Assembly: GCA_030591305.1 (NCBI GenBank)
Contig: JAUVBI010000126.1
Location: 1 to 8,643, forward strand
DNA length: 8,643 bases
DNA from: Pseudomonadota bacterium
GTDB taxonomy: Bacteria > Pseudomonadota > Gammaproteobacteria > Pseudomonadales > Halieaceae
Reading direction: 5' to 3'
In this document: positions 3,076 through 5,739 of the stretch, one piece after another
Position numbering within the stretch: the stretch's first letter is position 1
How the letters are laid out: each line of letters begins with the position of its first letter
Made by a program: the position numbers and the translations under genes
The notes under the pieces: model-generated
Told to the model about the DNA's origin: nothing
What the model saw: the letters and a program-made list of their open reading frames with translations, nothing else
Database searches by the model: none

Positions 3076-4530
3076 TTGCCTGAAGTAGTGTGGCAGCAGT
3101 GCGCAGATCGACTGCGAGACGAGTTACCGTCACAACAGTTCAATACCTGGATAAGGCCGCTGCAAGCCAGCACTGATGGGCGCAACCTGAGACTCCTGGC
3201 CCCAAACCGTTTTATCAAGGACTTTGTAACAGACAAGTTTGCTGAGCGTATTTCGGAGTTGGTTAGGGAGTTGGGGCGCGAAAGTGTGGATGTCGTGTTC
3301 CAGGTCGGCGTAGGCGGCGCGCCAGTGGGGGCCCGCCCCGAGCAGCGAATGCCCACACCATTGCAGGCTGTGGCCCAGGGTATGCAGCCGGCGATTTCGG
3401 GTCAGGCGGTTAATGGCAGTGCGGCCTCGGCAGACACCCATTCTTTCAGGGCGCGCCCGCCACGGATGGAAACGGTTCGCAAGGTGGAAGTAGTAGGCTC
3501 CTTGCAGCACCAGCACCATCTAGTTGAGAACTACACCTTCGACAATTTTATTGAGGGAAAATCAAACCAGCTGGCACTGGCGGCGGCAAAGCAAGTCGCC
3601 CAAAATCCAGGCGACTCGTATAATCCGTTGTTTCTGTACGGCGGGGTGGGCCTGGGTAAGACTCACCTGATGCATGCCGTCGGCAATGCACTGAAGCAGG
3701 AAAACCCCCAGGCCAAAGTGGTATACCTGCACTCTGAACGTTTTGTGGCGGATATGGTCAAGGCGCTGCAACTTAATGCTATCAGCGATTTCAAGCGCTA
3801 CTACCGCTCGGTAGATGCCCTGCTCATCGATGACATCCAGTTTTTTGCCAAGAAAGACCGGTCCCAGGAAGAATTTTTCCACACCTTTAATGCCCTGCTA
3901 GAGGGCGGCCAGCAGATGATCCTGACCTGCGATCGCTACCCCAAGGAAATTGACGGCCTTGAAGAGCGGCTTATATCCCGCTTCGGCTGGGGCCTGACGG
4001 TGGCTGTGGAGCCACCGGAGCTGGAAACCAGGGTGGCCATTCTTATGAAAAAAGCCACCCAGGCATGTACCGACCTGCCCCCGGAGGCGGCTTTTTTTAT
4101 CGCCCATCACATTCGATCAAACGTGCGTGAGTTAGAGGGTGCGCTAAAAAGAGTGATAGCAAGCGCACACTTCACCGGCAGGCCTATCGATGTAGATCTA
4201 GTAAAGGAGAGCCTCAAGGATCTGTTGGCCTTACAGAATAAGCAGATCAGCCTCGACAACATCCAGCGCACGGTGGCAGAGTACTACAAGATCAAGATAG
4301 CTGATTTGATGTCCAGGAGACGCAGTCGGTCGGTGGCCCGCCCCCGGCAGGTAGCCATGGCTTTGGCCAAGGAATTGACCAATCATAGCCTGCCCGAAAT
4401 TGGCGATAGTTTTGGCGGCAGAGATCACACGACAGTCCTGCACGGGTGTCGTAAAATTAAGGAACTTCGCGAAAGTAACTCTGATATTAGCGAAGATTAC
4501 AAAAACCTGTTGCGATCGCTCACAACTTGA
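3076..4530 (+). CDS. dnaA: Chromosomal replication initiator protein DnaA
   Basis: 484 aa from TTG 3076 (496 from GTG 3040). The ATP-bound form binds DnaA boxes, melts oriC and loads DnaB helicase; it also regulates transcription. Domain I starts at [20 protein letters not shown], then comes a variable linker (about residues 85-145). The AAA+ domain has Walker A GGVGLGKT (189-196), Walker [10 protein letters not shown] (249-257), sensor 1 LTCDRYP (Cys285 where E. coli has Ser) and the arginine-finger region SRFGWGLTV. Domain IV carries [11 protein letters not shown] and the DNA-binding signature [15 protein letters not shown] (447-461). I chose the TTG because it has a good ribosome site and gives the N-terminus expected for the family; GTG 3040 would add 12 residues of no known domain. 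The gene is intact, ends with TGA, and lies 105 nt before dnaN. Confidence 0.97.
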
Positions 4531-4635: not shown

Positions 4636-5739
4636 ATGAAGTTCACTATTTCGCGGGACGCCTTACTCAAACCGTTGAATCTTGTGGCCGGTGTGGTTGA
4701 GCGCAGACAAACCCTACCCATTCTGGCAAACGTATTAATGGTGCTGGATGGAGAGCAGCTGGCTCTGACGGGCACCGACCTGGAGGTTGAGTTGGTAGGC
4801 CGGGTTCAGCTCGCACACCCCGGCGACTCGGGAGAGGTGACGATTCCGGCCCGCAAACTGGTTGATATTTGCAAGTCCCTGCCAGAGGGTAGTGAAATCG
4901 ACTTTGCCGCCCAGGACAATAAGGTGACGATTAAGTCGGGCCGCAGCCGCTTTACCCAGGCCACGCTGCCAGCCAGGGAGTTTCCCAAAGTTGAAGACAT
5001 CGTGGGAACCCACCAGTTTACGGTCAAGCAGGGCCAGTAAAACCGCCTGATTGATCGCACCAGTTTTGCCATGGCTCAGCAGGACGTGAGGTATTATCTT
5101 AATGGCATGTTGTGGGAGATCAAGGACAAGCAAATGCGGGTTGTCGCCACGGACGGGCATCGCCTGGCCCTGTGCACCCTGCCAGGGACGATCGACGTCA
5201 GTGACGATACCCAGGTGATACTGCCGCGCAAGGGTGTGCTGGAACTCGCTCGGCTGCTGCAGGAGGACGATGCTGATATCGCGATCGTTTTAGGCAGTAA
5301 CCACATTCGCGCCACCACTAATGACGTTACTTTCACCTCTAAACTGGTGGATGGCAAATTTCCGGATTACCAGCGTGTGCTGCCCCGCTCTCCCGATAAG
5401 ATTGTGTTGGGGTCCAGGCTGGAGCTGCGCCAGGCATTTACCCGGACAGCCATTTTGTCAAATGAAAAATATCGCGGTGTGCGCCTGAAGCTGACCCAAA
5501 ACAGCTTGGATATTGTCGCCAATAACCCTGAGCAGGAAGAGGCTGAAGAGGTGGTGCAGGTGGATTACCAGGGCGACTCACTGGAGGCGGGCTTCAATGT
5601 CAGTTACTTGCTGGACGTACTTGGGGTGCTGAGCGGTGAGCAGGTGAAGCTCTCCCTGTCAGACCCCAGCAGCAGCGCGTTGCTGGAGGAGTCGGATGCG
5701 GGTGATTCTCTTTACGTCGTCATGCCTATGCGCCTCTAG
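4636..5739 (+). pseudogene. dnaN: DNA polymerase III beta subunit (sliding clamp), interrupted by an in-frame stop
   Basis: The clamp forms a ring dimer that tethers DNA polymerase III to DNA. The frame starts MKFTISRDALLKPLNLVAGV at ATG 4636, with a GGGAAGGG ribosome site upstream, and ends in the conserved VMPMRL. There are 367 residue positions against 366 in E. coli. The whole frame aligns without a gap, including NRLIDRTSFAMAQQDVRYYL, FTSKLVDGKFPDYQRVLP and NNPEQEEAEE. However, codon 135 (5038-5040) is TAA, at the start of the second of three clamp domains, where E. coli has Met. The reading frame is the same on both sides, so this is a base substitution and not an indel; TTA to TAA is the simplest change. 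The next internal ATG is at 5071 and has no clear ribosome site. Because dnaN is essential, a sequencing or assembly error, a second intact copy elsewhere, or suppression must be considered. TAA is a normal stop in neighbouring genes. The gene identity is certain; whether it is truly broken is not. Confidence 0.9.
5038..5040 (+). other. Premature in-frame TAA in dnaN (codon 135)
   Basis: The codons around the site read CAG TAA AAC CGC CTG ATT GAT. Matching to E. coli (QATMKRLIE) places the stop opposite a hydrophobic residue, with homology continuing on both sides. The stop separates a 134-codon N-terminal piece from a C-terminal piece of 232 codons. Confidence 0.95.

Follow-up and report, generated by a model that had tools for sequence, protein, structure and literature searches.

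The dnaN locus and its in-frame stop codon

The analyzed stretch of 8643 bp, hereafter called the window, carries the genes yidC, yidD, rnpA, rpmH, dnaA, dnaN, recF and gyrB. It appears to be a complete contig, as the longest contig recorded for the two dnaN half-gene proteins described below has the same length. In agreement with the preliminary description of this DNA, yidC, yidD, rnpA, rpmH, dnaA and recF are all open, and gyrB is open as far as the contig end. The dnaN frame starts with the ATG at 4636, is open to 5037 and again from 5041 up to the TAG at 5737–5739. It is interrupted by an in-frame TAA at 5038–5040 of the plus strand, which represents codon 135 counted from ATG 4636. Read through this stop, the frame gives a product of 367 residues, the commonest length among the 120 listed full-length relatives, and these relatives cover 100% of the read-through query in the alignment. 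This confirms that frame and length are kept on both sides of the TAA. The features discussed below are the following:

4636–5739, plus strand: dnaN as a whole, read through, a 367-residue sliding clamp with one internal stop
4636–5040, plus strand: 5' piece of 134 residues (protein P0122), domain I and the start of domain II, PF00712 at residues 1–119
4957–5043, plus strand: patch of codons 108–136, holding 6 of the 13 DnaN positions private to the window
5038–5040, plus strand: in-frame TAA at codon 135, a sense codon in the best 80 of 579 loci
5041–5043, plus strand: aberrant codon 136, asparagine, with lysine or arginine in the 120 listed relatives
5041–5070, plus strand: stretch from the stop to the next ATG, untranslated if the gene is split, with codon 136 aberrant and codons 137–145 relative-like
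5071–5739, plus strand: 3' piece from residue 146, 222 residues (protein P0242), most of domain II and domain III, PF02767 (partial) and PF02768

Owing to the TAA at codon 135, the sequence as it stands lacks the one unbroken frame of about 367 codons expected of a functional single-chain DnaN. The three domains of the TIGR00663 clamp are present, spread over the two pieces. Relative to the curated TIGR00663 cut-off of 137.65 bits, the 5' piece scores below (114.5) and the 3' piece above (217.3), compared with 367.2 for the intact relative P0002. TAA is also the stop codon of recF, rnpA and rpmH. A reassigned code was rejected on the grounds of these three genes, as had been argued before.

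Conservation of codon 135 and its neighbors

To place the interrupted codon in context, it was compared with the best 80 of 579 confirmed relative loci, and the DnaN residues with 120 listed sequences out of 7998 full-length relatives. Codon 135 is a sense codon in 80/80 loci (70 leucine, 8 valine, 1 isoleucine and 1 phenylalanine), and residue 135 is leucine in all 120 listed relatives, which shows that the site is constrained and that the TAA is not background variation. The comparison with the closest relatives, proposed in the preliminary description, thus revealed sense codons in all relatives examined and no stop.

The adjacent residue 136 is asparagine in the window versus lysine (113/120) or arginine (7/120) in the listed relatives, and further residues private to the window are found at 108, 118, 122 and 123. 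Codons 137–145, in turn, resemble those of the relatives; the serine at residue 143 is absent from the six nearest sequences shown, and is found in 8 of the 120 listed relatives and in locus L105. The simplest error had been proposed to be a single-base slip from TTA to TAA. This proposal was not supported: codon 135 of the window differs at three bases from 12 and at two bases from the remaining 2 of 14 relatives, and TTA occupies this codon in just 2 of the best 80 loci (of 579), neither titled Halieaceae, although it is not a rare codon in general (25/277 leucine codons of the window). Since codon 136 is aberrant as well, a single-base change is not the simplest path to the observed sequence.

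The named organisms nearest to the window are Pseudohalioglobus lutimaris and Seongchinamella unica, two members of the Halieaceae whose DnaN proteins are both 85% identical to the read-through product. These proteins belong to TIGR00663 with PF00712, PF02767 and PF02768, and their gene likewise lies between dnaA and recF; the window differs from them by the one in-frame stop at codon 135.

A patch of unusual residues around the stop

Including the stop, the window DnaN shows 13 private positions against the 120 listed relatives, whereas the relatives average 0.97 and reach 10 at most; the ten relatives next most alone have between 0 and 6. Six of the 13 fall within the 29 codons 108–136 (scan p = 0.010). 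One of them, at position 108, is near Phe106 in the sequence, a residue that a review assigns to the hydrophobic core of the clamp dimer interface (PMC11139829). In a looser set, consisting of the 24 residues that the window shares with none of the three nearest genomes (which have 1, 9 and 6 such residues themselves), this clustering does not reach significance (p = 0.30). Furthermore, with 15 loci as comparison, 191 DnaN columns are invariant and the window departs from 5 of them, which lies within the range of 0–6 seen in relatives. Both of these results speak against a pure artefact.

Across the five long genes, 39 residues of the window are unique at otherwise invariant sites, compared with 7, 16 and 14 in the three nearest relatives and 40, 21, 7, 21 and 11 in L096, L001, L003, L100 and L103, respectively. 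Such a high count would be expected from a mild error rate over the whole contig as well as from a faster lineage. Broken invariant sites form three adjacent pairs in the window (dnaA 356–357, dnaN 122–123 and dnaN 135–136) and none in eight relatives. By our estimate, about one such pair is expected by chance for 39 sites, so that the excess supports a local disturbance and does not decide the matter. Copying from a nearby repeat was considered as a source of the odd sequence and rejected: positions 4900–5200 contain three short direct-repeat pairs, read as chance, and no inverted repeat.

A local sequence error as the most probable origin of the stop

Altogether, we consider the TAA to be an artefact of a local sequence or assembly error, with a probability of about 0.65. 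The preliminary description had also favored an error, and this remains the best-supported explanation. It builds on the TAA itself, on the conservation of its site among relatives and on the surplus of unusual residues nearby, from which we infer that the patch reflects error rather than mutation. A short faulty segment of approximately codons 108–136 (4957–5043) would then be present in a lone metagenome-type contig. The cause might be a series of base errors, or a brief frame slip that is reversed within codons 135–136; each would account for both aberrant adjacent codons at once. The Halieaceae-related organism itself very probably has an intact dnaN at this position.

Besides the aberrant codons 135 and 136 and the intact codons 137–145, support comes from E. 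coli, where an engineered −1 frameshift allele of dnaN is reported to be truncated and non-functional, the cells needing a plasmid-borne clamp (PMC4045847). Translation of this allele ends at codon 135 with a 134-residue product, as in the window; however, its frameshift is at residue 50 and its sequence is foreign after residue 49 (PMC4045847), whereas domain I of the window is native. Therefore, the allele is not an exact test of the 5' piece.

With no stop in the relatives examined and a sequence that looks locally damaged, an error is likelier than new biology, and the TAA is most likely not a real feature of dnaN. As an artefact, it is a warning that, in a single contig, a stop inside an essential gene should be judged along with any odd codons next to it before biological conclusions are drawn. 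If it were real, the bacterium would have a split or replaced essential sliding clamp, which would bear on the question how much of the clamp ring has to consist of a single chain.

Evolutionary rate of dnaN and the possibility of a real nonsense allele

The main alternative is a recent, real nonsense allele, which would be covered by a second clamp gene or a suppressor tRNA, or would represent a dead-end variant. We regard it as unlikely, although it is supported by a raised dnaN omega. Omega was estimated with a self-written codon branch model (F3x4) on a single tree of nine taxa, whose codons were aligned pairwise to the window as anchor. It came to 0.095 on the window branch versus 0.022 elsewhere (LRT 20.85, p = 5e-6). 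Without codons 101–140 the value is still 0.085 versus 0.022 (p = 0.00013), which means that part of the rise is not explained by a local error. The increase is seen for codons 2–134 (0.158, p = 0.00032) and 146–367 (0.059, p = 0.013), as well as for the narrower or wider sections 2–100 (0.133, p = 0.0085) and 141–367 (0.067, p = 0.0045). In codons 101–140 minus 135, silent changes are nearly absent and omega runs to its upper bound (p = 0.00013). Also in favor of a nonsense allele, omega is not raised on the window branch for dnaA, yidC and recF (p = 0.83, 0.52 and 0.74), and the 24 unshared residues of the window exceed the 1, 9 and 6 of its three nearest genomes.

However, the roughly fourfold higher omega of 0.095 remains far below 1, and 15 of 18 unique DnaN changes outside codons 108–136 have BLOSUM62 scores of 0 or more. 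In addition, gyrB is raised as well (0.035 versus 0.0185, p = 0.034), so that the dnaN rise may partly reflect the lineage. With the eight other taxa set in turn as dnaN foreground, none was raised and two were lowered (L093, p = 0.00024; L095, p = 0.031), which indicates that the branch test reacts to uneven branch lengths. We read these data as a gene that evolves faster yet stays constrained, and that carries a short patch of another nature. A uniform error over the whole contig is not favored, as three of the four long neighbors fitted show no raised omega and BLOSUM62 scores are 0 or more for 12 of the 16 gyrB changes found only in the window, although the high count of unique residues at invariant sites would fit a mild form of it.

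Clamp genes in the family

The occurrence of clamp genes was surveyed in 140 genomes of the family of G001, the Pseudohalioglobus lutimaris genome. A dnaN match was obtained in 125 of them and none in the other 15, and not one of the 125 matches contains a stop inside the gene. Partial matches in six genomes (G033, G126, G130, G082, G122 and G108) are all cuts at contig ends, leaving one real interruption, a frame change in G115. Here, dnaN (L097, around 1987–1996) consists of two overlapping pieces in different frames, due to an error or a real break. It resembles the window in that a relative's clamp gene lies in two pieces; unlike in the window, the cause is a frame change near residue 207 and not an in-frame stop.

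A nonsense allele could be covered by a second clamp gene, and distant clamp-like genes with 32–33% identity do occur in the family (G139:C61:3851–4999 and G003:C41:2695–3744), while G119 has a partial second clamp-like match. Against this, the four genomes nearest to the window (G049, G050, G051 and G037, of which G050 is nearest with 91% DnaN identity) have one dnaN match each. As a separate observation, G003, the genome of L002, holds three near-full clamp genes at 81–85% identity in addition to the distant one, and the three near-full clamps suggest that it is a mixed genome bin.

The protein clusters of both half-genes, P0122 and P0242, comprise two member sequences each. The second member may be a plain fragment or a further copy broken at the same place, and its presence in both clusters counts against a pure artefact. 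Even less probable than a nonsense allele in general is that a broken or split dnaN is stably maintained in the lineage, either as two pieces or beside a second clamp, with drift already begun. This would form a subset of the nonsense allele and of the two-piece clamp treated below, and the raised omega on the window branch would then suggest the onset of drift.

Would a split clamp work?

In a two-piece clamp, domain I would end at the stop, and re-initiation at ATG 5071 would provide domains II and III, both pieces forming a joint ring. The internal in-frame ATG is conserved (M146 in 120/120 listed relatives), and the 3' half is constrained, as seen from the omega of 0.059 for codons 146–367. 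A listed DnaN piece of 222 residues (P0243) shares its initial methionine with the 3' piece, but it is located on a contig of 955 bp and may have been truncated at the contig edge, or may represent another interrupted dnaN. A comparable case is the short E. coli clamp form beta*, which, like the 3' piece, comprises domains II–III from an internal in-frame start. However, beta* is made besides the full-length clamp, which would be missing in the window.

Several findings make such a split highly improbable. In line with the preliminary description, visual inspection of the 30 bases preceding ATG 5071 revealed no ribosome site. The same description had called the split structurally suggestive, with a break near the boundary of domains I and II, which we could not substantiate. 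In the model of P0002, the closest full-length relative, helix 132–147 is the first of domain II and has residue 135 at its fourth position, and the Pfam domain limits of this protein are at 119 and 130; thus, the break does not coincide with a domain boundary. This model (mean pLDDT 70.9; 92 on average for residues 131–140 and 69 for 141–150) was used only for the helix limits, while the pLDDT of 35 for a model of the 3' piece alone is too low to inform. PF00712 is contained in the 5' piece, and in the 3' piece PF02768 is nearly whole; PF02767 is matched only from profile position 18 of 116, so that a product from ATG 5071 would lack positions 1–17 of the central-domain profile and most of helix 132–147. 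Moreover, codons 137–145 are intact yet would be untranslated, and no stop occurs inside dnaN in the 125 family genomes with a match. A literature search, largely limited to openly available papers, recognized no natural broken or split dnaN.

Finally, read-through of the stop, programmed or by a suppressor tRNA, would yield a full-length clamp and is compatible with the preserved frame and the constrained downstream half, but is equally improbable: the stop is not conserved in any relative examined (0 of the best 80 loci and 0/125 family genomes), TAA terminates three other genes of the window, and the sliding clamp is needed in steady supply.

Observations in neighboring genes

Two doublets in DnaA, at window positions 4105–4110 (codons 356–357) and 4066–4071 (codons 343–344), differ from all nearest genomes and, like the dnaN doublets, may be local errors or multi-base changes. 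On the minus strand, the longest yidD frame, with a GTG at 2056, overlaps rnpA by 61 bases (1996–2056), and the true yidD start may be located further in than this GTG.
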